Source: Thuidium tamariscinum (lineage: Eukaryota > Streptophyta > Bryopsida > Hypnales > Thuidiaceae). From it: a stretch of DNA of 64,000 nt. Every line of letters starts with the position of its first letter. Position 1 is the first letter of the stretch. Position numbers and translations under genes: made by a program. The stretch is from positions 24,327,386 to 24,391,385 of the forward strand of contig OX344752.2 of the NCBI GenBank assembly GCA_947034885.2, read 5' to 3'. The notes under the pieces were generated by a model that saw only the letters and a list, made by a program, of their open reading frames with translations, made no database searches and was not told the DNA's origin. Positions 11,598 through 64,000 of this stretch are shown one piece after another.

Positions 11598-11602
11598 TAA
11601 AG

Positions 11603-24412: not shown

Positions 24413-24445
<33 letters not shown>

Positions 24446-25447: not shown

Positions 25448-25451
25448 TGAC

Positions 25452-30873: not shown

Positions 30874-31230
30874 TGTGAGCCCCATAGTTGTCACCCAGAC
30901 CTTGAATCTTTTTTTGGGTACTTACTGCTCATTTTTAAGGTTCTTTTGGTTAAAGAAACAATTAAAAAGAGTGTTTGTAGACCTAAAAGTTTTTAGAATA
31001 ATGGTTAAAATTTAAAAAAAAGATCAATTAGGGCCCCTTTAGTGTTAAAAAATAAAAATAAAAGCAATTTTAAGGTCTAAAACTAGTTCGAAGTATAAAT
31101 AGAGCTAGTAGGATGGATGGGTGAAAAATAAAATAAAATAGAGATGAATGGGGTATGAACGAGGTCTCACCCCTTCCCAAAAGGTGTGACACCTCATTTC
31201 TAGTCTATAAATAGATTAAAAAATTAAAAT
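30874..31230 (+). mobile_element. LTR-like 5' end with TATA box, E7
   Basis: It starts TGTGAGCCCCATAGTTGTCACC, similar to the giant-LTR 5' end, then diverges. A strong TATA box (TATAAATAG, about 31097) lies only ~220 bp inside, much closer than in E1-E3, and is followed by GTCTCACCCCTTCCC. It may be a shorter LTR subfamily; no 3' end found. From 30991 on it is also present at the far end of the palindrome. Confidence 0.35.
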
Positions 31231-32345
31231 TTTCTGGCATTGTAAGACCCATTATTTTATATATATATATAATTGTGTTATTGTGAAGATTTCTTTGTAC
31301 TTATATGTATGAGAGATTAATTGAAGGTTCTTGTTGTATTATTGTGTGAATTTCATTCTTGGTCTGTATAATGGGAGAGGAGAAAAATTAGCAAAGTCCG
31401 TAACCAGAACTGGATGGTTGCAAATTCAATTGTAAAATGTGTAAGAGATAGAGTGTCTATTTCTTGACTTGAACCTGCACAAATTTTTTTCCGACATTCG
31501 CGAGTTGGTAGTGAAGCAAAGAGGAAGGAATCAGATTCACGAGAGATTCAATCGAAGCAAATCTGGCCTAGATTCACGGTAGCAATGGAAGAGATCGCTG
31601 ACTTGATAGATTGAATACAAATCAAAGCATTATCCGGAGCATGCCAAGAAATCGCAATTGGGTATGATTGATAGAGTTTGAGACTTTGAGGAGAAGTTGC
31701 TATAGTAATCTCAACCGGTCGAACCAAAATTGAAAAGCTTTCCGAAATTTTTTGTAATCAACCAATTGAGATGTTGGTGTGGATCGCAAGGATCAAGTAA
31801 GAACCAAATTACAACAAATTTCAGAGATTGTAATGAAGAATTCAAGAAACCAGAATTGAGAGTTATAGCAGTCAAAGTGCCTAACTGGCCACAAGCTGTT
31901 CCTACTCAATTTTCGGAAATTGGGCACAATTTGATTGCAGGAGAAGATTGAGAAAATTGTATCAATCTAGCAGGGAAACATCAATAAGAAATTTCAAGAA
32001 ATTCGACAATCCGAAGAAGAAATTGCAAATTTTGGACAAACACGACAGTCACATCACGAATTAGGTTCTACTCCACAATTCTTGAAATTTCTTCAAATTT
32101 CTCGGCGCCAGTGGATTGCGCAATGGTGTCGACTAAGCGAGAGTGATTCCATCCAAAGATTCAAAAATCAGCCGAGAATTGAGCGTTGGAGGAGGAGATC
32201 GGAGGCGCGACAATCGCTGCGAAGCTTCGGCGTGAGTATCTTGCAACGCAATTAGGGATTTGGGTCCCACGGCCATAGGATGCGATACCACGGCCATAGG
32301 ATCAAATCGCACTGTCATAGGACCACAGACCACGAATATAGGTCT
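31231..32345 (+). other. Moderately GC-richer unidentified segment with short tandem repeat
   Basis: Begins with an (AT)n run (31257-31272). It contains only short open frames without recognisable domains (the longest, 31730-31951, 73 codons). At about 32266-32345 four imperfect ~21-bp units of CCACGGCCATAGGATNNNATA occur in tandem. It could be the non-coding leader of an LTR element beginning at 30874. Mirrored at 62646-63760. Confidence 0.35.
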
Positions 32346-33523
32346 TTGGCCATAAATTTACAAATTTCAGTGTTCTTGGGGCTGATTTCATGGCCATATG
32401 GCCTGTTGTATGGTTTTTGATCCATTTGCATGGCTATGGGGACTAAATGTACAAAAATAGGGCTGTTTTTTTATGGTCTTAGGGTTGATTTGTGTGGTCT
32501 TAGGAACTATAGCTCAGTTTTAGGTCCCTTAGTTATTCTTTGTAAAATTTTAGTACTTGGTTATAGGTCCTATAAGTTTGGACCATTTGTAAATTGCTCC
32601 AATGTTATGTTTGCCGTGGTTTTAGGTGTAACTTTTGAGCAAACATAAGAATTGGATCAATGTTTTGTTGCATGTAGGTACTAACTTTGTGGTCATTTGG
32701 ATCATTTAACCTGGAATCATTTGACAAAAGTAAAAGTGGGAGGAAAAGAAAAGAGAAAAATTTGACCCTGGGTAAATTTCTAAACTCAGCATACTTTGCA
32801 TAACTGAGACAAATTTGACGTAGTTTACAGACACGTTAAGCATTTATGCATGAATCGTGTTAGTGATAGATTGACTGAACAAATTTGACCTAAACATAAA
32901 AATGTATAATTAATGAATTATGTGTATTATTTTATAAATATTATTGTGTTATGACTAAATCCTAGAGCATGCATCATATAAGATTCATTTGACCAAACCT
33001 GATTTATTTGACAAAGAATGATTTGACATCCCTTAGAACACTATATAGGACTGGAACTTTATACATACTTTGGTAATGGACTGGCCAACAAATTTTATAC
33101 ATGGGAATAAGAGTGCTATAATATTATCCTAAATTTGTAAACATAGATCTATTTGTAACTGACTTTCAGTCACAAAACGTTAGACTGATTTAACCTTTCC
33201 CTAAAACAAAGAACCCCTACACTATTGTTTCCTAGGTTTTGTGGAATTGCAAAACCCATATTACAGTGTTTGTAGAGTATTTGGAAGAATTTCCTATAAC
33301 CACGGGAAACTGATTACCATGATCTATGAATGCTCTAAGAACTTATTGGAACTGGTTTTTTTAATTCATTTAGCAATTTAAGAATGTAGTATAGTCGTTT
33401 AAAAAAAGTTTGTGGCAAATAGCATTCCAAACACAAGTTAGTGTAAAAGCACTAAGAATTGGCTCTTATCGAAATTTTCATGAATAAGCCTCACAGGGAA
33501 ATCACTTAGAGTAATCTTTAGAC
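32346..33523. other. AT-rich DNA, nothing recognised
   Basis: No coding, RNA or element ends identified; mirrored at 61468-62645. Confidence 0.4.
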
Positions 33524-34041
33524 ACTACGTGTGTTAAGATTTTGGATCCTCTATTTTATGTCCTAAAATTTAAATAAAAAGAGAAAAATAAATGAGAATA
33601 TTGCCTTACTTTGAAAGTTTATAACTTTAATTATTGATATTTTTATGTGTTAATTATAATTAGTTACAAATTTTTGAAGTAAAAAAATACACTACAGAGC
33701 TAAGAATAACTTTCACACTCCTATTTTATATAAGAAAAAATTGTCTAAAAAATGAACAAAAAATTGTTAAAAATATCTCTTCATTGAAAGTTTATTTTTT
33801 CTTGAATATTGATGCCATGGGCATTTAAATGCATTCTCTATAAATATTTGAGTTGAAAAACATACCAATTTAGTTCATTTTTCAACCTACTCTAGAAATC
33901 ATTCCATATGTTATTTGAGTTCAAAATTTTTGGCAATAGAAACCTATAGTCATTATTAAGCACATCTCAAAATTATAGGTTGAAATTATAGTTTATAAAA
34001 AAGTATATTAGGGGTCAAAGAACCACTTTAACACACGTAGT
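33524..34041. mobile_element. Possible small inverted-repeat element
   Basis: 518 bp bounded by a perfect 14-bp inverted repeat, ACTACGTGTGTTAA...TTAACACACGTAGT. No clear target duplication and no coding, so the class is uncertain. Mirrored at 60950-61467. Confidence 0.4.
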
Positions 34042-34381
34042 TTGTTTTTGATACACGAAGTGATCCCCCCGCGACAGGCCTGACATGTTTAGGTTCCGAT
34101 AGCAATAATGGGAGTTTGATAGGTTCCTAGGAGCCTTTGCAAGGAATACCTCTAAACATATTCCGATTACGGAATCTACAAGGAGTGGACAATCACAGAC
34201 ATTTGTAAGAGAAATCTTGGGGACATAGACAAACTATGACTCCGGAGCAACGATAGGCATTTTTAGCATAAAAATACGCTCAAAACGTAATGGTGAAGTC
34301 AATTTGCGGCGATTTCCTAGTATAGAAATTATTCCTCCTACGAAGAATTAATTCCATAGATGTTCAATTTACACTTTATTT

Positions 34382-36271
34382 CACTACTAGAAAATTTGTG
34401 TCCAAATCAACAAAAAAATCACTAAAATAGTGTTGATTTGGTTTAATACTTCTATATTGATTTAGTGTAATTGACTTGACCAATATTTAACAAAAACGTG
34501 TTCATTTTCTTTTTGTTCATTTTGTCATATTGTGAAATAATTTAAATTTTTTTAAAACTAAATAAACCAATTAACATTTGCCACGTTCCACTCTATGTGG
34601 CACCGATATGCCATGTGTCATCTATGCAAGGCCCACCACTTAAGTCAATATCGGCGTGGCAATCCACGTTGACCACCACCTCAATTTTCCAATGGAGTGT
34701 TGGCGTGGAGGTTCGAATTCCCTACCTCTCTGTTGGAAGGGAAGGATTCAAATCACCAAGCCACCTCTAAGTACTTATGAATGTATGCCAAGTTATTTAG
34801 TATATAAATCTTCTCTTTAAAATCACCAATGTTTAAATTTTGTAAATTTAGCTATCTTCAGAGCTCATTTAGGCATAGTAAATCAATTTTTTCTTGAAAC
34901 TTTGAACTAATAAAAGTTGAAGTTAAGTTTCACCTCCAAAAATTCGTTTGTCATTTGGAGCTTTCAAGATAAAGGTATGGCCAAAATTCAAAGACAACGT
35001 TAGAAACTGTCAATTTCTTTTTCGAAACATTGTCTTTGAATTTTGACCATCACTTTCTCTCAAAAGCTCCAAATGACAAACGAATTTTTGAAGGTGAAAC
35101 TTAACTTCAACGTCCAACTTTCATTAGTTCAATGTTTTTAAGAGAAAGTTGATTTACTATGTCTAAATGAGCTTTGAATTCAGTTGAACTTATAGAATCT
35201 GAGTTGTAAATGTTTAATTCAATTAATAAATTCCATTTTATAAAAAAACTCAAACCATATTGATTTAAACATATCTATAATTTTAAAAAAATTCTAATTT
35301 GAAAACTCTTATAACTCAAAACTAACCAAAAAAGGTAATTGTTTTCTTAAATTGGATATTGTTTTTCCAATCAACAAAAACAACCTATTAGGTTATAGAA
35401 AATCAACTATAAAGAAGTCAAAGTGAAGTTTCAAATCAATAAGTTTTGTTGAATGTAAGATTAGAGAAACTTTATTTAATTAAAGACATTTTGACATAAT
35501 AATAATGCAATCTTCCTTAAATATACAAAATATAGTACAATTTTTTAGAAATATTGTACAAACTAGTTTTTTCTTAAACTTAAAGATTTTGGAAATGAGG
35601 TCTCTAAATTTCAGTAGACTTTGGAGGCAATTTCAATAAAGAAAAACATTTTTTTGGAAAAACTTTCAACTGAAATAAGTTGAGAGGTTTAATTTAATTT
35701 AATTTCCTAAAATCTGTTTGTAATTTTGAAATTTCAATAAAAAGTTATGGATAAATTTCAAAGAGTGGTACCAAGGAACAATTTTTTTTAGATTTTCAAA
35801 CACTCTGTGAATTTTGTGCATAACTTTTTATTGAAGATAGGAAATCTTAAAAGAAAATTTAGAGATGAAATTTTGTTTGATTTTACAACTTTTCTTAAAT
35901 GGAAGTTTTTCTAAAAAAGATAGTTTTACCATGCTTAAACTGTCTCTAAAGTTTGTCGAATCAATAAAACACTGAATTGTGAGGGATTAATTTTATAAAA
36001 AAAGTTCATGGTAAAGAGAATTCAAAGTACGGTTATTTAGTTATTGCCTTAAATAAATAAAACTTACTTAAAAAAATTTAAGTTAGAATCAACAAACATT
36101 TGTTAATTTTTTTGTTGATTTGAACATTGTACTATCAAAATCAACAAAATTTTTGTTGATTTTGATAATATAGTGTCCAAATCAACAGGAACTTGTAAAA
36201 ACGGTCAATATAGTACCCAATTCAACAAAAAAAAATTTTGTTGTCGACTTGGACATCATTTTCTAGTATTG
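34382..36271. mobile_element. Non-autonomous CACTA-type DNA transposon
   Basis: 1890 bp. The left end is CACTACTAGAAAAT; the right end reversed is CAATACTAGAAAAT. Similarity continues over ~28 bp (GTCCAAATCAACA / GTCCAAGTCGACAACA). A 3-bp duplication TTT (34379-34381, 36272-36274) is as expected for CACTA. Subterminal copies of GTTGATTTGGACA are frequent (36.08-36.25 kb). There is no transposase coding. One terminal base departs from CACTA. A second copy by palindrome is at 58720-60609. Confidence 0.75.
34861..35173. repeat. Internal foldback in the CACTA element
   Basis: Imperfect ~140-bp inverted arms beginning GAGCTCATTTAGGCATAGTA and ending TACTATGTCTAAATGAGCT, containing CTCCAAATGACAAACGAATT and its reverse. 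A smaller foldback lies near 35.75-35.86 kb (CAATAAAAAGTTATG...CATAACTTTTTATTG). Both would form long hairpins in RNA. Mirrored at 59818-60130. Confidence 0.7.
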
Positions 36272-37449
36272 TTTAGAAAGTGTGGGTTTTTAATAAAACT
36301 TTGTACTTGGCTTTGGGAGACTTCCTAAAAGTTCCCCAAAAAATTTCGTAATTTTCTTGAATTGCAAAAATGACTCTATGGGAGGTCAACCACTTTTACC
36401 GACAATTGGAAAATTATATAAATTTTTTACAATAGTGATAAAATTCCACTAAGAATTAGGATAGTGCGTTTTAGCATAAATAAACACCTCTCTAAATTTC
36501 AAGACATTCTTACATCAACAAGTACCAGAATTGGCAACGAGCCAACGACAAGGATTTTTAACGGTTTTATCAAAATCTTTGCAAGTTGACCGGGGTACAA
36601 GGAGCATACGATGTTCAATTGGAGTCAATTTGGACTCTCTTTTAACATTATTGAACCTCTCCAACAACCCCAACTAGTCAAAACTTTTGAAAAAAATCAT
36701 TCTCAAAAGCTAGATTTTCTACCCTTTTCATTGAATTTTAGAGGTTAGTTTTTGAGCATAATTTAGCCTTGGGAGTAAGGGGTAAGGGTTTTCTTGGTTT
36801 AATTTGGGTCTTCATAAGCCAATGGCATTGTTTGTTTGGAAATCAAAACATTTCTTCAAAAGTTAAAATAGTCACAATATTAATGTAGAATTTTGAATGT
36901 TAATTTTGATTTTTCTTAGGTAGATTAGCAAATAATTTGAAGGGGAGGAGGCTTTAAAAACATGAAAAAGGTCTTCCCCTCCTCTCACTTCATACCCCTT
37001 ATCAAAAAACTTATGCAATTTGTACTCACGCCCAACACATTCAAAACTTTTAAAAACTATTTAGTATTTTCAAACTCCTGTGTTTTTTTCATCATATTAT
37101 TGATTTCAATTGTATTCCAAGCATTTTTCTATGTCTTAAAGCTTATTCAAGGGACATTAGAGGTTTCTTTGAAGCGCTTGATTAGTATTCTAGTATTCTA
37201 AGTACACTAACCATTTGCACGTTGTGGTGTTTTTCCTTCAAGTGTAAAACCAATAATTATTCAATTAATCTTTTTGAGTGAGATTCATAGCCCGAATTGG
37301 CTTACTGAGGATCCCCCTAAGGCTTAACCATTTAATTGTGATTCACAGTCTTGTTCTACAAGAGTTTGGTTAATCTCAAATATTTTTGAGTCTTTGTGTG
37401 GTAGAACTCTTGAAAGATTATTTTAAAATTTGAGAATAAACTCTCTAGT

Positions 37450-37550
37450 ACGGCGAAGCTATTGCCCTGAGACAAACATTTTAAAGATTTTTTTTTCTAA
37501 ATTAAAAAAAGTGGAGGGATAAATTCACCTTAGACGGCAAAGCTTCGCCT
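37450..37550 (+). repeat. Paired GGCRAAGCT motifs in E10
   Basis: ACGGCGAAGCTATTGCCC (~37450) and ACGGCAAAGCTTCGCC (~37534), ~84 bp apart, as in E2 and E3. Confidence 0.4.
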
Positions 37551-37649
37551 GCAAAGTCTAATTTTCAATTTTATTTTGTGTTAAAGGGTCCCCAAAAAAG
37601 ACCACAAAGTTTGGTTTTGAACATTGAATTTTGGCTTCCACGGCCAAGG

Positions 37650-37835
37650 AGGTCTCGAGATCCCTCTAGTAAGAAAATATCAATTCAACAAGGGCCAACA
37701 ATTCACGGCAAAGCCAACAGCCACATTGGAGGAGCCAACAACCATGGTAGAAGGGCTAGCAGCCACAATAAAGGGCCAATAGACACGACAAGGGCTAGTA
37801 GTTCATGGCAAGAGTTAGAGTCGCGGCACCTTGAT
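37650..37835 (+). repeat. Tandem tract (GGGCCAACAxCCACxxx units) in E10
   Basis: About seven imperfect ~24-27 bp units around AAGGGCCAACAGCCACAA. Same position as the GC-rich tracts of E1, E2 and E3. Mirrored at 57156-57341. Confidence 0.55.
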
Positions 37836-40190
37836 CAAACGAATTTGATATATATACATTGATTTAAGAAAAAATAAAACTCGGAGACGATGCCGTAAAG
37901 CCCTTATTTTTATTTCTTAAATTTTTTTATCAATTCAGTAAGGTTGGAAATTTGGACCAGACTAATGAGGGAAAGAAATTTTTTCAGAGTTTAAAATAGA
38001 TTAAGAGAAAGTTAAAAAGTTCAAACCAATCCAAGAGAGGGAAAGAAATTTTCTTAGAGCTTAAAATAGACTAAGATGAAGTTGGAATTTCCAAACCAAA
38101 TTGAAGTGATTCAGACCAAGACTAAATTGAGTTTGCAAAGTCAACAAACTGAACTAAGTTAGAATTCAACAGACTGAAGTGATTTGGCAATTGAAACTAG
38201 ACTAAGTTGAGTGGAATTCAAATAGATTGAAGTAATTTGACATTTAGATAGATTGAAGCTAAGTGGAAAAATTCAACATATCGGTTGTACTGTTTGGAAA
38301 ACAACTCATTCAAATCATACGTTGAACCCCAAAAATCTTCACATGTAGACTCCCATGCTTTACCTTCAATGTTTCAAGCATCAAATCAAGTGTAGAAGAA
38401 ACACAATTGAAGAACCTAAGTGAAAAAATTAGCACTTAGTAGTGAGAGAGAGAAAAAATGTTTTAGTTGTACATGCTTTAATTTTTAAAGAATACATCCC
38501 ATTAGACGAGATTGGAATTTTTATAAAGAATAAATCCCATCAAACAAGGTTGGAATTTTCATTAAAGAATATAGTTCCATCAAACAAAGTTGAAACTTTC
38601 TCATAAGACAAGTAGATACGACAAATTTAGGGAATAGTTGACTTTGGATAGATTTTAGAACTAGTTATTAGTTGGTAAAGGTCAAACAAGCTTTGTCTTA
38701 AGGTTTTGTTTAATTTCAAGACAATTAGCTAAGCATTTAGCATTAGATTTGGTAGGATTTTATTCTTGCAATAAATATTCAAAAATTCAAAAATCAAATG
38801 AAAAAGTAAAACAAAACACCTTTGAAGAAAAATAGTAGCAATATAAAAGAAGAAAAAGGAAAAAGGGAAGAAGTGGCTATTTGACAATTTTTCAACCAAA
38901 AATATGTGAGGAGCACAAAGGTTATGCAACATCACGAGACTAAATTATTGAACCTAGAAGTAGCGATGAACAAGGTTAGTTCTAATTAACTCCATTTCTT
39001 TTATTTATTTCTGCAAAAAATCATTAAATTCAAAGTAGGAAATTAGAAATCCAAGTCAAACCACTAAGGTCATTAGGAATTAGTGAAAAATCTAAAAAAA
39101 TAGTTAGAGAATTAAATTAACTTTTCAAAAATACCTTACAAGTTGAAATCCAACAAAAACACTAAAAATTACAGTCAATTGAAGTAATGGTTCAAAAATC
39201 AAAATTACTTTTGAAGGAATTTGTAATTTAAAAAGAATTAAAAAAAAAAATAGAAGCAAAATTTCAAAAAGACAAAAGTAAGAATCAAAGGTAAAAATCA
39301 AATCATTTTTAAAAATTCAAAAAGGTAAAATAATTTAACAAGTAAATTTTGATGAACCGATTAACGGTCAAAATTTACCAATAAAAATTACAATTGTTAA
39401 GGAGTTTTGAAGCTTATTTTTACTTTTAAAAAGAGGTAAAATTCAACGTTTGAAAGTAAATAAATTTACTTTGAGGAAAAAAGGGTAAAAATTTCCATTA
39501 CCAAAAATCGTAGCTACGAGTAAGAATTTATCAAGTAGCAAAATCATTAAGCAAAAAAGAATTAAAAACCAATATTAGCTATAATAGATATAAACTCTTT
39601 TAAATTATTTTATACATAGAAATCAAAATTATAATGAAGAAATAGCAGTTGAATGAAGTTTAGAACCAAATCAATGGGCATTTGGATGAAAATCAACTAG
39701 AGTTGATTAAAATTCTTCAAAATCAAATCAAGGGTAGAAGATTAAAAACCAAAAATAATATTTCAATCCAATCCAATCCAATTTTGATGGTTTGAACCAT
39801 AGCAATTGACATATGAAGTTTTAATCGGTAGATTGAATATTAAACTTCAACTACCTGTATCTTTTAGGAATCAAGGTCAAAATTAGTATTCTTTATCTTT
39901 TTGGAAAAGACATGAGAATCTCTATAAATTCCAACTTCTAAAATTTTAGGCCGATTCATTTAGATTAAATTTAAGCCGAATGGTCACTGAACTAGCATTT
40001 TTTATTATTCTTTTTTGGTATGCAATTTATAAACGTACGATTAAGATAGACACCTTAATTACAAAAAGATTCATTGCTTCAAAAGTTTAATTGGATAAAC
40101 GCTTAGACACCCATAGGATACAATTCATAATTTATACTTAAAAGAGCCTGATTATATATACTTTGTTCCAAGGGTGGAAAAAAATGCTCA

Positions 40191-40412
40191 CGTGAGGCTA
40201 ATTACCTAATTTCTTTAACATTCATCCTAATTCTTAATTTTTAATCTATTAATCTATTTATTATATATTAAATATTAATTTAGATCATGTACTATACCTA
40301 TTTTGGTTCTACACTCTTTTTAGTGCTTTTTAAGTTTATTTTTCTATTTAGTTTTATAAGAAATCAAAGATAAAACCAGTGACTCTTCGGTGACGAATCA
40401 AGGGCCTACACA
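40191..40412 (-). mobile_element. 5' end of giant LTR-like copy E5
   Basis: In reverse it begins TGTGTAGGCCCTTGATTCGTCACCG, the clean 5' end type, continuing with AGAGTGTAGAACCAAAATAGG as in E6 and E2. It is cut at 40190 by E10, so E10 probably inserted into it. Mirrored at 54579-54800. Confidence 0.6.
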
Positions 40413-41419
40413 CGGCCTCATTAAATCATTTTAAGACTTGAATGAATTTATTATTAAGATTTAAATGACTATAAATAATATTAAAATGTAAACAACTTTT
40501 AAGGTATTTTTAGAAACTACACAATGATATAATTTTAAAGTAATGAAATTTGTTATTTTATTAAAATTATGTTACACAAGTATACAAGTATGAAAGATTC
40601 TAGAATTGACATCATTCACTTACTTAAAAAATCTTCATGATTTGAGTAAAAAAGTATTATTTAAATTCAAAATATATATGAAATGTAGATGAAAGAAAAT
40701 CACTACATTAATTAAAAACTTAAAGTATATGACAAACTTGACTTTTGGTCAAAAAACTCTAAATCAAACTTTCAAATCTAAAAAAATAAATTTTTTATTA
40801 ACATAGCAAATATATCTTGAAGATTTAGGATTTAAAGGTTATTAATATATATGATTTAAATTTAGATTTTGTTGTTATATCAATTCAAATTTTGAATTTG
40901 ATATAATTGGTCAAATGACTAAAAACAACAAAGCAATTTTAATCATTATTTTTTAATTTATTTTTAAAATTTATTCAAGAATATAATAAAAATATGTTAA
41001 TAATTTTTTAATATGAACAAAAAAAACTTGTAATGAAATCAATTATATATATATTTTATTTTCTATTATATTATAATTTTTACATCAAGAGTAACTAAAA
41101 ATTGTTATAATCATCAAAAAATTTCACTAGACAAAAGTTTGTAGGATCACAAGATTTACAATTCCTTACAATTTTAATTATAGGACCAAGATATCAAATG
41201 TCTTAACTTTTTAAGGTGATTTAAAACTAAAACTCACAATTTTACCTTCATTTCAAATATAATTTCTTCTGAAGATCATAATTTCATCATTTTAGTTTAT
41301 AATTAAGCATAGTTTTTTATTTTATTATCATTTAAACTTTAAATACAACCACACTAATTTTCAAAATCCCATCAAATGTATTGCTAATATATAGAACATA
41401 ATGCTAAAAATCCTATATT
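40413..41419. other. AT-rich DNA, nothing recognised
   Basis: Very AT-rich with short AT runs; no genes or element ends seen. Confidence 0.4.
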
Positions 41420-41945
41420 AAAACCTAAATGACATTTAACAAAATGAACTTTATTTAAAAAAAAATTTATATGTTTTATGTAGAAGCAAATATAAATTTG
41501 ATTTAAGTAAGCAATTGCAAATTATGATCAAATGAGATTAATAAGATTACAAGTGAAATAATAAAGAGCATTAAATGTTTGAGGAACATATATAACTTTT
41601 AAAAGATGAATGTAGTTTTTTTAATTATAACACTAGAAGAAAAACACTGAAAACGCTGTTAATTTCAACGCACTACGTTAGGTAGATTGTGTTGAGACTG
41701 CGTTGCTGAAAACGCAGAAAAACACAGAAAACGCGTTTTTTTTGTGTTTTTTTGTGTTTTTTCCTCGTTTTCAGCAACGCGGCCTCAACACAATCTACCT
41801 GACGTGTTGCGTTGAAAATAACAGGGATTTCTTCTAGTGTAAATGTGATTTAGAAAATGTAAGTGTACATATTAAAAAAACAAATGCACGTTTTTAAGAT
41901 CATGAATGATTCATATGTGTTCAAATAGAAATCACAATTATTAAA
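41420..41945 (+). repeat. Dispersed repeat, copy a (contains MITE)
   Basis: Aligns in reverse to 45495-45815 in the same arm (shared AAATTTGATTTAAGTAAGCA, ATGATCAAATGAGATTAATA, GATTCATATGTRTTCAAATA). This copy carries the 209-bp hairpin MITE; the other does not. Mirrored at 53046-53571. Confidence 0.7.
41631..41839. mobile_element. CACTA-type hairpin MITE
   Basis: 209 bp, CACTAGAAGAAA...TTTCTTCTAGTG, palindromic over nearly its whole length (~95-bp arms, for example AGGTAGATTGTGTTGAG and CTCAACACAATCTACCT). 3-bp duplication TAA on both sides (41628-41630, 41840-41842). The related repeat at 45.5-45.8 kb gives an unoccupied counterpart. Second copy 53152-53360. Confidence 0.85.
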
Positions 41946-42134
41946 AAACATCAATAAATAATTAAATGATGGTTCTAAATGTTCAATGAGAAATGTCATA
42001 CTTCAATTAACTAATGCTCATTGTATGTTTTTAATTTAAAACTTTATTAAAATTTGTACATGCATTAGTATTATAATTAACACAAATAATTAAATAAAAA
42101 ATTATAGTTATAAGTTTCTAAACATACTAAATTA

Positions 42135-42790
42135 TTAATAATAGGATTATCAAGATGATCCGAATAGTAAGGTATTATAATAAATTCATACACGTATAAG
42201 TATTGAAAGTTTAAAATTATTTTGGTTATTCAAATCATAAGGTAACATTACAAATTCACACGCGTATTAATGTTAAAATTATGATAGTTATGTAAATAAT
42301 AAGGTACTGTTATAAGTTTATGCAAATATTAGTATTAAAATGATCATAATTATCTTAATAAAAAAGATATCATTATGAATTTATGCATGTTAAAGTAATA
42401 AAATTTTCATAATTATTTAAATAACAAGATATCATCACAAATTTGAACACATATTAATATTAGAATTGCCACGATTATCTAAATAACAAAGTATCATTGC
42501 ATATTCATACACGTAAAAATATTAAAATTCTTACATTATTTGAATAACAAAGTATTATCATAAATTTTTGTACGCATTAATATTAAATTTATTACAGTTA
42601 TTTAAATAACAAAGTATCATTATGAATTTATGCACATATGAGTACTAAAATTCTCACAGTTATCCGAATAATAAGATATTATTACAAATTTATACATGCA
42701 TTAGTATTAAAATGATCACAGTTATCTTGACAATAAAACGTCATTACAAATTTATGTAGATATTATTCTTAAAATTATTAACAATTAATT
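42135..42790. repeat. ~62-bp tandem array
   Basis: About ten degenerate units, period ~62 bp, around AATAACAAAGTATCATTACA plus AATTTATACACGTATTAGTA; successive unit starts near 42170, 42240, 42302, 42363, 42426, 42488, 42550, 42611, 42673, 42736. Mirrored at 52201-52856. Confidence 0.8.
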
Positions 42791-43297
42791 CTCAAACGAC
42801 GAATTAATGCTTAAAGCACCTCTCAATATATTTCAATACATATTGCTTCATCTTTGCTTAAATTTAAACTTCAAATTTTTAAGAATTTGCAATGTTGTGA
42901 TGAATAATTCAAATCTTCTATGAATTGAATTTTAGCGTCATCAACTCTTTAAACTTAAAAATAAATTTTAGTACTTAATTAATTTATTAAATTCAATTTC
43001 AAAATTTTAGTTTTGCATTGATAAAATATTAGGGCTGGTTAACTCTCACATCCTCATTTTTTTTTTGGATTTGTTGACTAATTTTTCAAACTCCCATTTA
43101 AGTTTTAAACTTAAAAAAAACATGATATTTTATACATTCCACAATTTTAAAAGTATTCCTCATTATTTTAGTAAAGACTTCTATCAAAATCCTTCACAAC
43201 TATTTTTTGTATTTTTTAAATATAAAATAAACCTAAAAACTCTTAATACTCTTAAAACTTGCATTTGAAGTTTCAAACGTTATCTTCAGAGCTCACA
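42791..43297 (-). mobile_element. 5' end of giant LTR-like copy E9
   Basis: Aligns with 21.96-22.25 kb of E4 (CTCACATCCTCA, TTTTAGTAAAGACTTCTATC) and ends at the CAGAGCTCACA terminus at 43297 (5' end, - strand). Beyond 42.79 kb the tandem array begins. Mirrored at 51694-52200. Confidence 0.5.
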
Positions 43298-53151: not shown

Positions 53152-53360
53152 CACTAGAAGAAATCCCTGTTATTTTCAACGCAACACGTCAGGTAGATTG
53201 TGTTGAGGCCGCGTTGCTGAAAACGAGGAAAAAACACAAAAAAACACAAAAAAAACGCGTTTTCTGTGTTTTTCTGCGTTTTCAGCAACGCAGTCTCAAC
53301 ACAATCTACCTAACGTAGTGCGTTGAAATTAACAGCGTTTTCAGTGTTTTTCTTCTAGTG
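53152..53360. mobile_element. CACTA-type hairpin MITE, palindrome copy
   Basis: Exact reverse complement of 41631-41839 as far as compared. Confidence 0.85.
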
Positions 53361-54800
53361 TTATAATTAAAAAAACTACATTCATCTTTTAAAAGTTATA
53401 TATGTTCCTCAAACATTTAATGCTCTTTATTATTTCACTTGTAATCTTATTAATCTCATTTGATCATAATTTGCAATTGCTTACTTAAATCAAATTTATA
53501 TTTGCTTCTACATAAAACATATAAATTTTTTTTTAAATAAAGTTCATTTTGTTAAATGTCATTTAGGTTTTAATATAGGATTTTTAGCATTATGTTCTAT
53601 ATATTAGCAATACATTTGATGGGATTTTGAAAATTAGTGTGGTTGTATTTAAAGTTTAAATGATAATAAAATAAAAAACTATGCTTAATTATAAACTAAA
53701 ATGATGAAATTATGATCTTCAGAAGAAATTATATTTGAAATGAAGGTAAAATTGTGAGTTTTAGTTTTAAATCACCTTAAAAAGTTAAGACATTTGATAT
53801 CTTGGTCCTATAATTAAAATTGTAAGGAATTGTAAATCTTGTGATCCTACAAACTTTTGTCTAGTGAAATTTTTTGATGATTATAACAATTTTTAGTTAC
53901 TCTTGATGTAAAAATTATAATATAATAGAAAATAAAATATATATATAATTGATTTCATTACAAGTTTTTTTTGTTCATATTAAAAAATTATTAACATATT
54001 TTTATTATATTCTTGAATAAATTTTAAAAATAAATTAAAAAATAATGATTAAAATTGCTTTGTTGTTTTTAGTCATTTGACCAATTATATCAAATTCAAA
54101 ATTTGAATTGATATAACAACAAAATCTAAATTTAAATCATATATATTAATAACCTTTAAATCCTAAATCTTCAAGATATATTTGCTATGTTAATAAAAAA
54201 TTTATTTTTTTAGATTTGAAAGTTTGATTTAGAGTTTTTTGACCAAAAGTCAAGTTTGTCATATACTTTAAGTTTTTAATTAATGTAGTGATTTTCTTTC
54301 ATCTACATTTCATATATATTTTGAATTTAAATAATACTTTTTTACTCAAATCATGAAGATTTTTTAAGTAAGTGAATGATGTCAATTCTAGAATCTTTCA
54401 TACTTGTATACTTGTGTAACATAATTTTAATAAAATAACAAATTTCATTACTTTAAAATTATATCATTGTGTAGTTTCTAAAAATACCTTAAAAGTTGTT
54501 TACATTTTAATATTATTTATAGTCATTTAAATCTTAATAATAAATTCATTCAAGTCTTAAAATGATTTAATGAGGCCGTGTGTAGGCCCTTGATTCGTCA
54601 CCGAAGAGTCACTGGTTTTATCTTTGATTTCTTATAAAACTAAATAGAAAAATAAACTTAAAAAGCACTAAAAAGAGTGTAGAACCAAAATAGGTATAGT
54701 ACATGATCTAAATTAATATTTAATATATAATAAATAGATTAATAGATTAAAAATTAAGAATTAGGATGAATGTTAAAGAAATTAGGTAATTAGCCTCACG

Positions 54801-57800
54801 TGAGCATTTTTTTCCACCCTTGGAACAAAGTATATATAATCAGGCTCTTTTAAGTATAAATTATGAATTGTATCCTATGGGTGTCTAAGCGTTTATCCAA
54901 TTAAACTTTTGAAGCAATGAATCTTTTTGTAATTAAGGTGTCTATCTTAATCGTACGTTTATAAATTGCATACCAAAAAAGAATAATAAAAAATGCTAGT
55001 TCAGTGACCATTCGGCTTAAATTTAATCTAAATGAATCGGCCTAAAATTTTAGAAGTTGGAATTTATAGAGATTCTCATGTCTTTTCCAAAAAGATAAAG
55101 AATACTAATTTTGACCTTGATTCCTAAAAGATACAGGTAGTTGAAGTTTAATATTCAATCTACCGATTAAAACTTCATATGTCAATTGCTATGGTTCAAA
55201 CCATCAAAATTGGATTGGATTGGATTGAAATATTATTTTTGGTTTTTAATCTTCTACCCTTGATTTGATTTTGAAGAATTTTAATCAACTCTAGTTGATT
55301 TTCATCCAAATGCCCATTGATTTGGTTCTAAACTTCATTCAACTGCTATTTCTTCATTATAATTTTGATTTCTATGTATAAAATAATTTAAAAGAGTTTA
55401 TATCTATTATAGCTAATATTGGTTTTTAATTCTTTTTTGCTTAATGATTTTGCTACTTGATAAATTCTTACTCGTAGCTACGATTTTTGGTAATGGAAAT
55501 TTTTACCCTTTTTTCCTCAAAGTAAATTTATTTACTTTCAAACGTTGAATTTTACCTCTTTTTAAAAGTAAAAATAAGCTTCAAAACTCCTTAACAATTG
55601 TAATTTTTATTGGTAAATTTTGACCGTTAATCGGTTCATCAAAATTTACTTGTTAAATTATTTTACCTTTTTGAATTTTTAAAAATGATTTGATTTTTAC
55701 CTTTGATTCTTACTTTTGTCTTTTTGAAATTTTGCTTCTATTTTTTTTTTTAATTCTTTTTAAATTACAAATTCCTTCAAAAGTAATTTTGATTTTTGAA
55801 CCATTACTTCAATTGACTGTAATTTTTAGTGTTTTTGTTGGATTTCAACTTGTAAGGTATTTTTGAAAAGTTAATTTAATTCTCTAACTATTTTTTTAGA
55901 TTTTTCACTAATTCCTAATGACCTTAGTGGTTTGACTTGGATTTCTAATTTCCTACTTTGAATTTAATGATTTTTTGCAGAAATAAATAAAAGAAATGGA
56001 GTTAATTAGAACTAACCTTGTTCATCGCTACTTCTAGGTTCAATAATTTAGTCTCGTGATGTTGCATAACCTTTGTGCTCCTCACATATTTTTGGTTGAA
56101 AAATTGTCAAATAGCCACTTCTTCCCTTTTTCCTTTTTCTTCTTTTATATTGCTACTATTTTTCTTCAAAGGTGTTTTGTTTTACTTTTTCATTTGATTT
56201 TTGAATTTTTGAATATTTATTGCAAGAATAAAATCCTACCAAATCTAATGCTAAATGCTTAGCTAATTGTCTTGAAATTAAACAAAACCTTAAGACAAAG
56301 CTTGTTTGACCTTTACCAACTAATAACTAGTTCTAAAATCTATCCAAAGTCAACTATTCCCTAAATTTGTCGTATCTACTTGTCTTATGAGAAAGTTTCA
56401 ACTTTGTTTGATGGAACTATATTCTTTAATGAAAATTCCAACCTTGTTTGATGGGATTTATTCTTTATAAAAATTCCAATCTCGTCTAATGGGATGTATT
56501 CTTTAAAAATTAAAGCATGTACAACTAAAACATTTTTTCTCTCTCTCACTACTAAGTGCTAATTTTTTCACTTAGGTTCTTCAATTGTGTTTCTTCTACA
56601 CTTGATTTGATGCTTGAAACATTGAAGGTAAAGCATGGGAGTCTACATGTGAAGATTTTTGGGGTTCAACGTATGATTTGAATGAGTTGTTTTCCAAACA
56701 GTACAACCGATATGTTGAATTTTTCCACTTAGCTTCAATCTATCTAAATGTCAAATTACTTCAATCTATTTGAATTCCACTCAACTTAGTCTAGTTTCAA
56801 TTGCCAAATCACTTCAGTCTGTTGAATTCTAACTTAGTTCAGTTTGTTGACTTTGCAAACTCAATTTAGTCTTGGTCTGAATCACTTCAATTTGGTTTGG
56901 AAATTCCAACTTCATCTTAGTCTATTTTAAGCTCTAAGAAAATTTCTTTCCCTCTCTTGGATTGGTTTGAACTTTTTAACTTTCTCTTAATCTATTTTAA
57001 ACTCTGAAAAAATTTCTTTCCCTCATTAGTCTGGTCCAAATTTCCAACCTTACTGAATTGATAAAAAAATTTAAGAAATAAAAATAAGGGCTTTACGGCA
57101 TCGTCTCCGAGTTTTATTTTTTCTTAAATCAATGTATATATATCAAATTCGTTTGATCAAGGTGCCGCGACTCTAACTCTTGCCATGAACTACTAGCCCT
57201 TGTCGTGTCTATTGGCCCTTTATTGTGGCTGCTAGCCCTTCTACCATGGTTGTTGGCTCCTCCAATGTGGCTGTTGGCTTTGCCGTGAATTGTTGGCCCT
57301 TGTTGAATTGATATTTTCTTACTAGAGGGATCTCGAGACCTCCTTGGCCGTGGAAGCCAAAATTCAATGTTCAAAACCAAACTTTGTGGTCTTTTTTGGG
57401 GACCCTTTAACACAAAATAAAATTGAAAATTAGACTTTGCAGGCGAAGCTTTGCCGTCTAAGGTGAATTTATCCCTCCACTTTTTTTAATTTAGAAAAAA
57501 AAATCTTTAAAATGTTTGTCTCAGGGCAATAGCTTCGCCGTACTAGAGAGTTTATTCTCAAATTTTAAAATAATCTTTCAAGAGTTCTACCACACAAAGA
57601 CTCAAAAATATTTGAGATTAACCAAACTCTTGTAGAACAAGACTGTGAATCACAATTAAATGGTTAAGCCTTAGGGGGATCCTCAGTAAGCCAATTCGGG
57701 CTATGAATCTCACTCAAAAAGATTAATTGAATAATTATTGGTTTTACACTTGAAGGAAAAACACCACAACGTGCAAATGGTTAGTGTACTTAGAATACTA

Positions 57801-58719
57801 GAATACTAATCAAGCGCTTCAAAGAAACCTCTAATGTCCCTTGAATAAGCTTTAAGACATAGAAAAATGCTTGGAATACAATTGAAATCAATAATATGAT
57901 GAAAAAAACACAGGAGTTTGAAAATACTAAATAGTTTTTAAAAGTTTTGAATGTGTTGGGCGTGAGTACAAATTGCATAAGTTTTTTGATAAGGGGTATG
58001 AAGTGAGAGGAGGGGAAGACCTTTTTCATGTTTTTAAAGCCTCCTCCCCTTCAAATTATTTGCTAATCTACCTAAGAAAAATCAAAATTAACATTCAAAA
58101 TTCTACATTAATATTGTGACTATTTTAACTTTTGAAGAAATGTTTTGATTTCCAAACAAACAATGCCATTGGCTTATGAAGACCCAAATTAAACCAAGAA
58201 AACCCTTACCCCTTACTCCCAAGGCTAAATTATGCTCAAAAACTAACCTCTAAAATTCAATGAAAAGGGTAGAAAATCTAGCTTTTGAGAATGATTTTTT
58301 TCAAAAGTTTTGACTAGTTGGGGTTGTTGGAGAGGTTCAATAATGTTAAAAGAGAGTCCAAATTGACTCCAATTGAACATCGTATGCTCCTTGTACCCCG
58401 GTCAACTTGCAAAGATTTTGATAAAACCGTTAAAAATCCTTGTCGTTGGCTCGTTGCCAATTCTGGTACTTGTTGATGTAAGAATGTCTTGAAATTTAGA
58501 GAGGTGTTTATTTATGCTAAAACGCACTATCCTAATTCTTAGTGGAATTTTATCACTATTGTAAAAAATTTATATAATTTTCCAATTGTCGGTAAAAGTG
58601 GTTGACCTCCCATAGAGTCATTTTTGCAATTCAAGAAAATTACGAAATTTTTTGGGGAACTTTTAGGAAGTCTCCCAAAGCCAAGTACAAAGTTTTATTA
58701 AAAACCCACACTTTCTAAA
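54801..58719 (-). mobile_element. Giant LTR-like copy E10, palindrome copy
   Basis: Reverse complement of 36272-40190, created by the palindrome rather than by a new insertion. Confidence 0.55.
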
Positions 58720-60609
58720 CAATACTAGAAAATGATGTCCAAGTCGACAACAAAATTTTTTTTTGTTGAATTGGGTACTATATTGACCGTTTTTACAAGT
58801 TCCTGTTGATTTGGACACTATATTATCAAAATCAACAAAAATTTTGTTGATTTTGATAGTACAATGTTCAAATCAACAAAAAAATTAACAAATGTTTGTT
58901 GATTCTAACTTAAATTTTTTTAAGTAAGTTTTATTTATTTAAGGCAATAACTAAATAACCGTACTTTGAATTCTCTTTACCATGAACTTTTTTTATAAAA
59001 TTAATCCCTCACAATTCAGTGTTTTATTGATTCGACAAACTTTAGAGACAGTTTAAGCATGGTAAAACTATCTTTTTTAGAAAAACTTCCATTTAAGAAA
59101 AGTTGTAAAATCAAACAAAATTTCATCTCTAAATTTTCTTTTAAGATTTCCTATCTTCAATAAAAAGTTATGCACAAAATTCACAGAGTGTTTGAAAATC
59201 TAAAAAAAATTGTTCCTTGGTACCACTCTTTGAAATTTATCCATAACTTTTTATTGAAATTTCAAAATTACAAACAGATTTTAGGAAATTAAATTAAATT
59301 AAACCTCTCAACTTATTTCAGTTGAAAGTTTTTCCAAAAAAATGTTTTTCTTTATTGAAATTGCCTCCAAAGTCTACTGAAATTTAGAGACCTCATTTCC
59401 AAAATCTTTAAGTTTAAGAAAAAACTAGTTTGTACAATATTTCTAAAAAATTGTACTATATTTTGTATATTTAAGGAAGATTGCATTATTATTATGTCAA
59501 AATGTCTTTAATTAAATAAAGTTTCTCTAATCTTACATTCAACAAAACTTATTGATTTGAAACTTCACTTTGACTTCTTTATAGTTGATTTTCTATAACC
59601 TAATAGGTTGTTTTTGTTGATTGGAAAAACAATATCCAATTTAAGAAAACAATTACCTTTTTTGGTTAGTTTTGAGTTATAAGAGTTTTCAAATTAGAAT
59701 TTTTTTAAAATTATAGATATGTTTAAATCAATATGGTTTGAGTTTTTTTATAAAATGGAATTTATTAATTGAATTAAACATTTACAACTCAGATTCTATA
59801 AGTTCAACTGAATTCAAAGCTCATTTAGACATAGTAAATCAACTTTCTCTTAAAAACATTGAACTAATGAAAGTTGGACGTTGAAGTTAAGTTTCACCTT
59901 CAAAAATTCGTTTGTCATTTGGAGCTTTTGAGAGAAAGTGATGGTCAAAATTCAAAGACAATGTTTCGAAAAAGAAATTGACAGTTTCTAACGTTGTCTT
60001 TGAATTTTGGCCATACCTTTATCTTGAAAGCTCCAAATGACAAACGAATTTTTGGAGGTGAAACTTAACTTCAACTTTTATTAGTTCAAAGTTTCAAGAA
60101 AAAATTGATTTACTATGCCTAAATGAGCTCTGAAGATAGCTAAATTTACAAAATTTAAACATTGGTGATTTTAAAGAGAAGATTTATATACTAAATAACT
60201 TGGCATACATTCATAAGTACTTAGAGGTGGCTTGGTGATTTGAATCCTTCCCTTCCAACAGAGAGGTAGGGAATTCGAACCTCCACGCCAACACTCCATT
60301 GGAAAATTGAGGTGGTGGTCAACGTGGATTGCCACGCCGATATTGACTTAAGTGGTGGGCCTTGCATAGATGACACATGGCATATCGGTGCCACATAGAG
60401 TGGAACGTGGCAAATGTTAATTGGTTTATTTAGTTTTAAAAAAATTTAAATTATTTCACAATATGACAAAATGAACAAAAAGAAAATGAACACGTTTTTG
60501 TTAAATATTGGTCAAGTCAATTACACTAAATCAATATAGAAGTATTAAACCAAATCAACACTATTTTAGTGATTTTTTTGTTGATTTGGACACAAATTTT
60601 CTAGTAGTG
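58720..60609. mobile_element. Non-autonomous CACTA-type transposon, palindrome copy
   Basis: Reverse complement of 34382-36271; ends CAATACTAGAAAAT and ATTTTCTAGTAGTG. Confidence 0.75.
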
Positions 60610-63600
60610 AAATAAAGTGTAAATTGAACATCTATGGAATTAATTCTTCGTAGGAGGAATAATTTCTATACTAGGAAATCGCCGCAAATTGACTTCACCA
60701 TTACGTTTTGAGCGTATTTTTATGCTAAAAATGCCTATCGTTGCTCCGGAGTCATAGTTTGTCTATGTCCCCAAGATTTCTCTTACAAATGTCTGTGATT
60801 GTCCACTCCTTGTAGATTCCGTAATCGGAATATGTTTAGAGGTATTCCTTGCAAAGGCTCCTAGGAACCTATCAAACTCCCATTATTGCTATCGGAACCT
60901 AAACATGTCAGGCCTGTCGCGGGGGGATCACTTCGTGTATCAAAAACAAACTACGTGTGTTAAAGTGGTTCTTTGACCCCTAATATACTTTTTTATAAAC
61001 TATAATTTCAACCTATAATTTTGAGATGTGCTTAATAATGACTATAGGTTTCTATTGCCAAAAATTTTGAACTCAAATAACATATGGAATGATTTCTAGA
61101 GTAGGTTGAAAAATGAACTAAATTGGTATGTTTTTCAACTCAAATATTTATAGAGAATGCATTTAAATGCCCATGGCATCAATATTCAAGAAAAAATAAA
61201 CTTTCAATGAAGAGATATTTTTAACAATTTTTTGTTCATTTTTTAGACAATTTTTTCTTATATAAAATAGGAGTGTGAAAGTTATTCTTAGCTCTGTAGT
61301 GTATTTTTTTACTTCAAAAATTTGTAACTAATTATAATTAACACATAAAAATATCAATAATTAAAGTTATAAACTTTCAAAGTAAGGCAATATTCTCATT
61401 TATTTTTCTCTTTTTATTTAAATTTTAGGACATAAAATAGAGGATCCAAAATCTTAACACACGTAGTGTCTAAAGATTACTCTAAGTGATTTCCCTGTGA
61501 GGCTTATTCATGAAAATTTCGATAAGAGCCAATTCTTAGTGCTTTTACACTAACTTGTGTTTGGAATGCTATTTGCCACAAACTTTTTTTAAACGACTAT
61601 ACTACATTCTTAAATTGCTAAATGAATTAAAAAAACCAGTTCCAATAAGTTCTTAGAGCATTCATAGATCATGGTAATCAGTTTCCCGTGGTTATAGGAA
61701 ATTCTTCCAAATACTCTACAAACACTGTAATATGGGTTTTGCAATTCCACAAAACCTAGGAAACAATAGTGTAGGGGTTCTTTGTTTTAGGGAAAGGTTA
61801 AATCAGTCTAACGTTTTGTGACTGAAAGTCAGTTACAAATAGATCTATGTTTACAAATTTAGGATAATATTATAGCACTCTTATTCCCATGTATAAAATT
61901 TGTTGGCCAGTCCATTACCAAAGTATGTATAAAGTTCCAGTCCTATATAGTGTTCTAAGGGATGTCAAATCATTCTTTGTCAAATAAATCAGGTTTGGTC
62001 AAATGAATCTTATATGATGCATGCTCTAGGATTTAGTCATAACACAATAATATTTATAAAATAATACACATAATTCATTAATTATACATTTTTATGTTTA
62101 GGTCAAATTTGTTCAGTCAATCTATCACTAACACGATTCATGCATAAATGCTTAACGTGTCTGTAAACTACGTCAAATTTGTCTCAGTTATGCAAAGTAT
62201 GCTGAGTTTAGAAATTTACCCAGGGTCAAATTTTTCTCTTTTCTTTTCCTCCCACTTTTACTTTTGTCAAATGATTCCAGGTTAAATGATCCAAATGACC
62301 ACAAAGTTAGTACCTACATGCAACAAAACATTGATCCAATTCTTATGTTTGCTCAAAAGTTACACCTAAAACCACGGCAAACATAACATTGGAGCAATTT
62401 ACAAATGGTCCAAACTTATAGGACCTATAACCAAGTACTAAAATTTTACAAAGAATAACTAAGGGACCTAAAACTGAGCTATAGTTCCTAAGACCACACA
62501 AATCAACCCTAAGACCATAAAAAAACAGCCCTATTTTTGTACATTTAGTCCCCATAGCCATGCAAATGGATCAAAAACCATACAACAGGCCATATGGCCA
62601 TGAAATCAGCCCCAAGAACACTGAAATTTGTAAATTTATGGCCAAAGACCTATATTCGTGGTCTGTGGTCCTATGACAGTGCGATTTGATCCTATGGCCG
62701 TGGTATCGCATCCTATGGCCGTGGGACCCAAATCCCTAATTGCGTTGCAAGATACTCACGCCGAAGCTTCGCAGCGATTGTCGCGCCTCCGATCTCCTCC
62801 TCCAACGCTCAATTCTCGGCTGATTTTTGAATCTTTGGATGGAATCACTCTCGCTTAGTCGACACCATTGCGCAATCCACTGGCGCCGAGAAATTTGAAG
62901 AAATTTCAAGAATTGTGGAGTAGAACCTAATTCGTGATGTGACTGTCGTGTTTGTCCAAAATTTGCAATTTCTTCTTCGGATTGTCGAATTTCTTGAAAT
63001 TTCTTATTGATGTTTCCCTGCTAGATTGATACAATTTTCTCAATCTTCTCCTGCAATCAAATTGTGCCCAATTTCCGAAAATTGAGTAGGAACAGCTTGT
63101 GGCCAGTTAGGCACTTTGACTGCTATAACTCTCAATTCTGGTTTCTTGAATTCTTCATTACAATCTCTGAAATTTGTTGTAATTTGGTTCTTACTTGATC
63201 CTTGCGATCCACACCAACATCTCAATTGGTTGATTACAAAAAATTTCGGAAAGCTTTTCAATTTTGGTTCGACCGGTTGAGATTACTACAGCAACTTCTC
63301 CTCAAAGTCTCAAACTCTATCAATCATACCCAATTGCGATTTCTTGGCATGCTCCGGATAATGCTTTGATTTGTATTCAATCTATCAAGTCAGCGATCTC
63401 TTCCATTGCTACCGTGAATCTAGGCCAGATTTGCTTCGATTGAATCTCTCGTGAATCTGATTCCTTCCTCTTTGCTTCACTACCAACTCGCGAATGTCGG
63501 AAAAAAATTTGTGCAGGTTCAAGTCAAGAAATAGACACTCTATCTCTTACACATTTTACAATTGAATTTGCAACCATCCAGTTCTGGTTACGGACTTTGC

Positions 63601-64000
63601 TAATTTTTCTCCTCTCCCATTATACAGACCAAGAATGAAATTCACACAATAATACAACAAGAACCTTCAATTAATCTCTCATACATATAAGTACAAAGAA
63701 ATCTTCACAATAACACAATTATATATATATATAAAATAATGGGTCTTACAATGCCAGAAAATTTTAATTTTTTAATCTATTTATAGACTAGAAATGAGGT
63801 GTCACACCTTTTGGGAAGGGGTGAGACCTCGTTCATACCCCATTCATCTCTATTTTATTTTATTTTTCACCCATCCATCCTACTAGCTCTATTTATACTT
63901 CGAACTAGTTTTAGACCTTAAAATTGCTTTTATTTTTATTTTTTAACACTAAAGGGGCCCTAATTGATCTTTTTTTTAAATTTTAACCATTATTCTAAAA

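Follow-up and report, generated by a model that had tools for sequence, protein, structure and literature searches.

The 64,000-bp stretch of DNA analysed here (the window) contains a near-perfect palindrome, in which two visible arms of 16,112 bp, identical except for a single base, lie as reverse complements on either side of a unique 786-bp spacer. We hold with moderate confidence that the structure is real and that it represents a very young inverted duplication in plant nuclear DNA, formed through foldback or template switch. A recent duplication is favoured by the combination of one mismatch and no indel in 16,112 bp, the unique spacer, and the sharp boundary between arms and centre.

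Geometry of the palindrome and the single arm difference

The palindrome is composed of the following parts:

30991..47102, + strand: left arm, visible part, 16,112 bp (pairing test, blastn)
47103..47888, no strand: unique central spacer, 786 bp, GC 37.8%, occurring once in the window
47889..64000, − strand: right arm, the left arm's reverse complement, truncated at the end of the window (pairing test, blastn)
31702..31702, + strand: the only arm-arm difference, left-arm allele A, where the minus strand reads TAG instead of CAG (arm alignment)
63289..63289, + strand: counterpart of 31702 in the right arm, allele C within CAG (CHG context), G in arm orientation (arm alignment)

By blastn the arms are 99.994% identical, with one mismatch and no gaps, and neither carries an insertion of its own across the 16.1 kb compared. 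This bears out the sequence-only reading, in which position i was paired with position 94991-i without indel. Under this pairing 281 of 16,505 pairs mismatch, one falling on arm position 31702 and the other 280 within the spacer half 47103-47495, and the lone arm mismatch is bordered by exact runs of 711 bp on its outer and 15,400 bp on its inner side. Reverse-complement-shared 20-mers occupy 32,192 positions of the window, versus 0 in each of three first-order Markov simulations, which excludes a chance origin of the symmetry. The earlier statements that the spacer is unique and that the arms run to the window edge hold as well: 47103-47888 is present once, and the right arm is cut at 64000, so that the full size is larger than seen or undefined. 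Since 30991 merely mirrors the window end, the outer edges of the palindrome are outside the view, and 16,112 bp per arm is a minimum length that describes the visible part.

At the centre, identity drops abruptly to background level; the 400-bp ends of the spacer share a match of 8 bp at best. Due to this abrupt drop, an older inverted repeat with tapering arms was rejected. A late transposon insertion into the centre of a perfect palindrome was also rejected, since the spacer lacks flanking direct repeats of 3-11 bp such as a target-site duplication would leave. The spacer contains a degenerate short tandem repeat around 47291-47410. Inverted matches near the junctions reach up to 7 bp in AT-rich DNA, where the unrearranged parent allele would be needed to read junction microhomology; these matches, those near the right junction included, we judge to be probably due to chance.

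The lone difference between the arms is a transition at a CHG cytosine. CHG sites are a favoured mutation target in plants, and methylated CHG can also produce basecalling errors. Among the 16,112 arm positions, CAG/CTG accounts for 284 (1.8%), CHG for 2.3%, and CG or CHG for 5.2%; the difference sits in the outer 2 kb of the arm, where CHG depletion is mild (observed/expected 0.81). This is compatible with 5-methylcytosine having mutated in one copy where two physically exist, as a post hoc argument from one site.

Base composition and contents of the arms

Once dinucleotide content is taken into account, CAG/CTG stands out as the trinucleotide with by far the strongest depletion, at 0.49 of the first-order Markov expectation in the flank (next 0.85) and 0.55 in arm plus spacer (next 0.83). 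Depletion of CAG/CTG is the expected outcome of CHG methylation, and the DNA therefore looks plant-like. This lends independent support to the description as plant DNA in the sequence-only reading, and the palindrome is probably of plant nuclear origin. The accompanying term microsatellite-bearing applies weakly, to 13 homopolymers of 8-11 bp and three dinucleotide runs of 5-7 units in the arm. Spacer and arm are depleted alike (0.57 and 0.58), and the spacer thus looks genomic rather than like adapter or low-complexity filler, which does not count against an artefact whose loop is itself genomic.

The GC content is 29.3% in the arm, 37.8% in the spacer, 36.3% in 1-30990 and 30.4% in 22001-30990, where the visible flank may itself partly be arm. 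Of 20 arm bins, 2 reach the GC content of the spacer. The inner 2 kb of the arm (45103-47102) has a CHG observed/expected ratio of 0.97 versus 0.63 for the whole arm. The following features were recorded within the arms, none with a strand:

34857..35178, mirror 59813-60134: hairpin-like element, 322 bp, self-complementary at ~81%, MITE-like by shape only (self-comparison)
42163..42776, mirror 52215-52828: diverged 62/123-bp tandem repeat (repeat comparison)
45853..46852: GC-richer island close to the arm's inner end, with four 250-bp bins at 44-47%, without a convincing Pfam match (GC bins)
48139..49138: mirror copy of this island in the right arm (94991-i symmetry)

A Pfam scan of all 102 stop-to-stop ORFs of at least 42 aa in 30900-48000 yielded 12 families at E <=0.1 and nothing convincing, with a best E of 0.0088 (DUF6200); the right arm beyond 48000 is represented by its left-arm mirror, and such a scan would miss short-exon genes and unknown families. 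When all 144 stop-to-stop ORFs of at least 60 aa lying wholly in 1-47890 were searched, NIF, RVT_1 and a weak DUF6200 matched at E <=0.01. The RVT_1 match must lie in the left flank, since the arm scan did not return it at E 0.1; it was not pinpointed among 20 flank ORFs and 10 flank/arm ORFs. For the NIF-like protein of the flank, solved structures gave no match, and in a collection of viral contigs without plant genomes six stretches fitted a pattern, of which 0 were confirmed. Neither 45800-47888 among plasmids nor the spacer among phages found a relative, in collections that hold no plant genomes. The visible arms contain 0 tRNAs and 0 Rfam matches at gathering score, and an organellar (plastid-type) inverted repeat was rejected because they carry no rRNA or tRNA. 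Three patterns of telomere-type repeats were searched and none was found. In their visible part the arms resemble ordinary intergenic DNA in which no gene is recognised, so the palindrome need not have a function of its own.

Possible origins of the symmetry

The sequence-only reading had offered three causes, namely recent duplication, gene conversion and an assembly product, of which the first fits best. We propose that a single DNA strand, broken or stalled, either folded back or changed its template to the opposite strand ~0.8 kb behind its 3' end. Copying of this locus in the reverse direction would have produced a mirror copy of at least 16.1 kb, while the 786-bp loop would have been left behind as the spacer. 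Since then the arms, in their visible part, would have gained one substitution and no indel. The arm divergence of 6.2e-5 (95% interval 1.6e-6 to 3.5e-4) would correspond to an age of ~4,400 generations (95% interval 110-25,000), at a mutation rate of 7e-9 per site and assuming no arm-to-arm conversion. In yeast, loops of up to thousands of nt have been documented for foldback inversions (PMC7467729), and in long single-stranded DNA inverted repeats separated by 30 kb are described as able to fold back (PMC10164571). However, most of the yeast loops in the cited data are far below 786 nt, with a median of 36 nt even in Mre11/Sae2-proficient strains (PMC7467729), and spacers of 6 and 35 bp are given for other yeast cases (PMC10622511).

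A chimeric molecule would give near-perfect symmetry too, and polishing with multi-mapped reads may make arms look more alike than they are. A technical origin, either as a foldback chimera from library preparation or whole-genome amplification or as an assembly path that reversed and ran through one locus two times, in opposite directions, is a substantial possibility, even if not the one we favour. Foldback reads are reported to make up ~0.55-0.6% of ONT genomic reads (PMC12870357), more than 85% of multiple displacement amplification (MDA) chimeras are inverted with an intervening deletion, with 337 of 475 chimeras being inverted and having their segments <10 kb apart (PMC1855051), and palindromes from whole-genome amplification are a known problem in long reads, Arabidopsis samples included (PMC6218980). 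The earlier argument that the spacer speaks against a simple foldback read is weaker than claimed, since MDA inverted chimeras can carry an intervening segment (PMC1855051) and one illustrated ONT foldback read had ~2 kb between its halves (PMC12870357). Breakinator, as described there, counts a read as a foldback if its second half maps to the opposite strand no more than 200 bp from the first (PMC12870357); by our reading of this criterion, the 786-bp segment exceeds the limit if it is contiguous with the arm in the true genome, but not if it is foreign. Against a technical origin, PacBio HiFi is reported to yield virtually no foldbacks, albeit from three PacBio samples only (PMC12870357), and Canu and similar assemblers are stated to handle chimeric reads better than older software (PMC6218980). 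One read accounting for the whole structure would have to be at least 33 kb long, and nevertheless no indel separates the arms, even at the 13 homopolymers. In contrast to foldback artefacts and MDA chimeras, with which the palindrome shares the symmetry and possibly the intervening segment, its arms differ by a CHG transition and not by an indel over 16 kb, and its spacer is complex DNA of genomic appearance. Two diverged haplotypes joined head to head are disfavoured unless heterozygosity is below ~0.03%, as the probability of at most one arm difference would be 0.003 at 0.05% heterozygosity and 2e-6 at 0.1%.

An older palindrome whose arms have been kept the same through arm-to-arm gene conversion, a situation known from mammalian sex chromosomes and the W chromosome of Salix purpurea, is unlikely. 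Sex-chromosome-type palindromes have arms of at least 10 kb, >99% identity and a short spacer, and the values here are 16,112 bp, 99.994% and 786 bp; arm length, spacer size and identity resemble those given for S. purpurea W.P1 (PMC7023750). At ~2.3e-4 per site per generation, conversion would suffice to keep the arms as identical as observed; for the upper limit of divergence 4e-5 is enough, close to the 4.5e-5 given for primate X palindromes (PMC8981503). However, at the equilibrium divergence of primate X palindromes the probability of at most one difference is ~0.004-0.005, and no gene was recognised in the visible arms, although sex-chromosome-type palindromes carry genes there. Long-converting primate palindromes are reported to have a higher GC content in arms than in flanks, the arm-spacer difference being not significant with small spacers left out (PMC8981503), while arm GC is not raised here over spacer or visible flank, a weak point since the flank may itself be arm. 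Recent duplication also requires fewer assumptions. We regard as improbable a natural plant palindrome that extends far beyond 16 kb per arm, perhaps within a non-recombining region that is sex-linked or belongs to a B chromosome, and keeps >99.99% identity via unusually frequent conversion at ~2e-4 per site per generation.

It is very improbable that we see the inner part of a huge foldback-type mobile element with the arms as long inverted termini: long inverted arms around a short centre and the hairpin-like elements inside them would fit, but the scanned arm and spacer ORFs gave no transposase domain, the outer ends and any target-site duplication lie beyond the part in view, and arms >16 kb would far exceed known foldback elements.

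Relation to known palindromes and significance

The young duplication favoured here has its closest mechanistic counterparts in yeast foldback inversions and breakage-fusion-bridge products, which likewise consist of an inverted flanking copy around a loop-derived spacer (PMC7467729); the palindrome is an inverted copy of an adjacent segment around a unique centre. The yeast products differ in often carrying secondary rearrangements (PMC10622511) and in their mostly shorter loops (median 36 nt or less in the cited data, versus a 786-bp spacer). In plants, Salix purpurea W.P1 is similar in its size of tens of kb, its >99% identical arms of ~20 kb and its short unique spacer, for which the source states 2.6 kb in its text but 3,586 bp in a table; its arms hold SMR, RR, R1, R2 and HCT, whereas those described here are without a convincing Pfam domain. 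Evidence for gene conversion is reported for the Salix palindromes (PMC7023750). The Populus Y-linked ARR17 inverted repeats, also from plants, surround unique spacers of ~2-2.7 kb, but the P. trichocarpa arms are given as <=3.8 kb long and 90-95% identical, with response-regulator gene fragments (PMC7465354, PMC9636151), none of which was recognised here. Primate X palindromes likewise have long arms, with a median of 37 kb, that are very similar to each other; the reported median identity is 99.953% with raised arm GC (PMC8981503), compared to 99.994% and low arm GC here. The plant palindromes compared are all from Salicaceae sex regions, and the term is also used for strawberry, waterhemp and plant sex chromosomes generally.

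If the palindrome is an artefact, it is a warning that near-perfect palindromes with a unique spacer can get into assemblies. If its arms are frequently converted, spacer orientation should be polymorphic via arm-to-arm crossovers, and if it is transcribed across the 786-bp spacer, it could be a giant hairpin source of small RNAs. If it is real, it would represent a plant palindrome that has only just arisen, its centre intact and its arms carrying one mutation per 16 kb, in which the formation of inverted duplications, the pace of symmetry loss and arm-to-arm conversion in plants would become directly measurable.

Geometry of the palindrome

The large palindrome is a true feature of the supplied sequence, with outer edges outside the view. 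Its parts are:

30991-47102, forward strand, left arm, visible part, starting at the mirror of the window end
47103-47888, spacer of 786 bp
47889-64000, right arm, reverse complement of the left, cut by the window end

Pairing of position i with 94991-i over 30991-47495 (16,505 pairs) gave one mismatch up to 47102, and the spacer half paired at background level (280 of 393 mismatched). A blastn comparison of the window with itself aligned 30991-47102 to 64000-47889 with 99.994% identity (16,112 bases, one mismatch, no gaps) and found the spacer only once. The pairing without net indel to the window end, claimed by the sequence-only reading, thus holds, and no indel separates the arms across the 16,112 bp aligned. 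Reverse-complement-shared 20-mers occupy 32,192 positions in the window versus none in three simulations of first-order composition. Both junctions are sharp in the window, where neither a target-site duplication nor microhomology is readable at them; only an unrearranged allele would reveal such homology.

Arm and flank sequence

The arms are AT-rich (29.3% GC), carry diverged tandem repeats and hairpin-like elements, and gave no tRNA, no Rfam family and no convincing Pfam domain in their visible part. A GC-richer island (44-47%; 45853-46852) near the inner end of each arm is perhaps an unmethylated gene-like stretch or a recent insertion. The flank, 1-30990, holds elements of its own:

4392-9100, GC-richer block with several ORFs, possibly a transposon with captured genes; the ORF at 7526-8164 matches an NLI-interacting-factor-like phosphatase (PF03031, E 5e-11)
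10115-10836, 10871-11598 and 24722-25448, three direct copies of a ~730-bp element, 74-78% identical, the first two nearly adjacent
13607-15596 and 19682-21741, older inverted repeat of ~2 kb around a centre of ~4 kb, 70.8% identical in its main part

The ~730-bp copies form one MITE-like family; the third has the terminal inverted repeats GGGTGATTGCAAGAAACACTT...AAGTGTTTCTTGCAATCACCC, of which the other two keep diverged forms. The older repeat, without Pfam matches in ten ORFs, probably represents either two insertions of one transposon in opposite orientation or the decayed remains of a palindrome next to the fresh one. A reverse transcriptase match (RVT_1, E 5e-5) falls on one flank ORF and is not found among the arm ORFs.

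A putative methylation footprint and the lone arm difference

Over 1-47888, of which the right arm mirrors the left-arm part, CAG/CTG occurs at about half of the first-order Markov expectation, far under all other trinucleotides. Being the most depleted trinucleotide, it reaches observed/expected ratios of 0.49 in the flank and 0.55 in arm plus spacer, compared to 0.85 and 0.83 for the next-lowest. CpG-containing trinucleotides are about as low when base composition alone is the expectation, and CpG itself is depleted (0.55 flank, 0.68 arm). CHG depletion is uneven along the arm (0.63 overall), being almost nil in the inner 2 kb (0.97) and little in the outer 2 kb (0.81). In plants, CMT3-type CHG methylation followed by deamination leads to an expected loss of CAG/CTG. 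Since the depletion matches this trace, a land-plant nuclear origin of the DNA is likely, and the putative CHG methylation footprint points, independently of homology, to plant DNA. No match to the parts searched came from the collections of plasmids, phages and viruses, none of which includes plant genomes.

The sole difference between the arms, 711 bp inward from the visible outer end, is A at 31702 versus C (plus strand) at 63289. Read on the minus strand, the site is CAG in the right arm and TAG in the left. Provided that the right-arm state came first, the change was a transition of C-to-T type in CHG context. CAG/CTG covers 284 of the 16,112 arm positions (1.8%), all CHG 2.3%, and CG or CHG 5.2%. 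Post hoc and from one site, this hints that a methylcytosine truly mutated in one of two copies physically present; methylated CHG sites can also mislead nanopore basecallers.

Origin of the palindrome

The single difference over 16,112 bp puts divergence at 6.2e-5 per site, with a 95% interval of 1.6e-6 to 3.5e-4. If mutations arise at an Arabidopsis-like 7e-9 per site per generation and conversion is absent, the palindrome would be ~4,400 generations old (110 to 25,000). A large-looped foldback accounts for its anatomy: a resected single strand would self-anneal or switch template ~0.8 kb back, synthesis would then copy the locus outward, and the loop would be turned into the 786-bp spacer. 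Yeast foldback inversions are reported to originate in hairpins, with loops of median 36 nt and up to thousands of nt in Mre11/Sae2-proficient cells (PMC7467729), and 786 nt would therefore fall in the upper tail. On long single-stranded DNA, foldback is described as possible between inverted repeats 30 kb apart (PMC10164571), and inverted duplications as arising when a hairpin-capped end is filled in and replicated (PMC10622511).

A foldback or chimeric artefact, or an assembly reusing one locus, is a substantial minority possibility. Foldback reads are reported to make up 0.55-0.6% of ONT genomic libraries and to be virtually absent from PacBio HiFi, in few samples tested (PMC12870357); over 85% of MDA chimeras are described as inverted with an intervening deletion (PMC1855051), and Arabidopsis samples were among those studied for WGA palindromes (PMC6218980). 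However, an artefact would presuppose either one read spanning 33 kb or more or repeated use of one locus by the assembly, and arms without an indel in 16 kb speak against it. The earlier argument that a unique spacer disfavours a foldback read stands insofar as gaps above 11 bp typically occur in less than half of ONT foldback artefacts, and is weakened by an illustrated artefact with ~2 kb between its halves (PMC12870357) and by the MDA deletions. The CAG/CTG depletion of the spacer (0.57) shows, at the level of composition, genomic DNA rather than filler, but is neutral here because it would equally be seen in an artefact whose loop is genomic.

Arm-to-arm conversion balancing mutation could also keep the arms near-identical; the rate required is 2.3e-4 per site per generation, and taking the upper limit of the divergence lowers it to no less than 4e-5. 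For primate X palindromes 4.5e-5 is reported (PMC8981503); at that equilibrium, at most one difference has a probability of ~0.004-0.005. Long-converting primate palindromes are described with arm GC above flank GC and no significant difference between spacer and arm (PMC8981503). Here arm GC is below that of the spacer, whose level is reached in 2 of 20 spacer-sized arm bins. It is also below that of 1-30990 (36.3%) and similar to the 30.4% of 22001-30990, the part of the left flank nearest the visible arm, a comparison without verdict on conversion since the flank may be partly arm. With no recognised genes in the visible arms and no verdict from GC, the class of converted sex-chromosome palindromes is not supported, and we prefer a recent origin to upkeep by conversion as the simpler reading. 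Two haplotypes joined head to head are unlikely unless heterozygosity is below ~0.03%, as at most one difference has P = 0.046 at 0.03% and 0.003 at 0.05%.

In the literature compared, the nearest natural plant parallel to the palindrome is W.P1 of the Salix purpurea W chromosome, described with arm genes and evidence of conversion (PMC7023750), neither of which the visible arms show; the Populus ARR17 inverted repeats are, as described, smaller and more diverged (PMC7465354, PMC9636151). The feature belongs among the known inverted duplications and palindromes.
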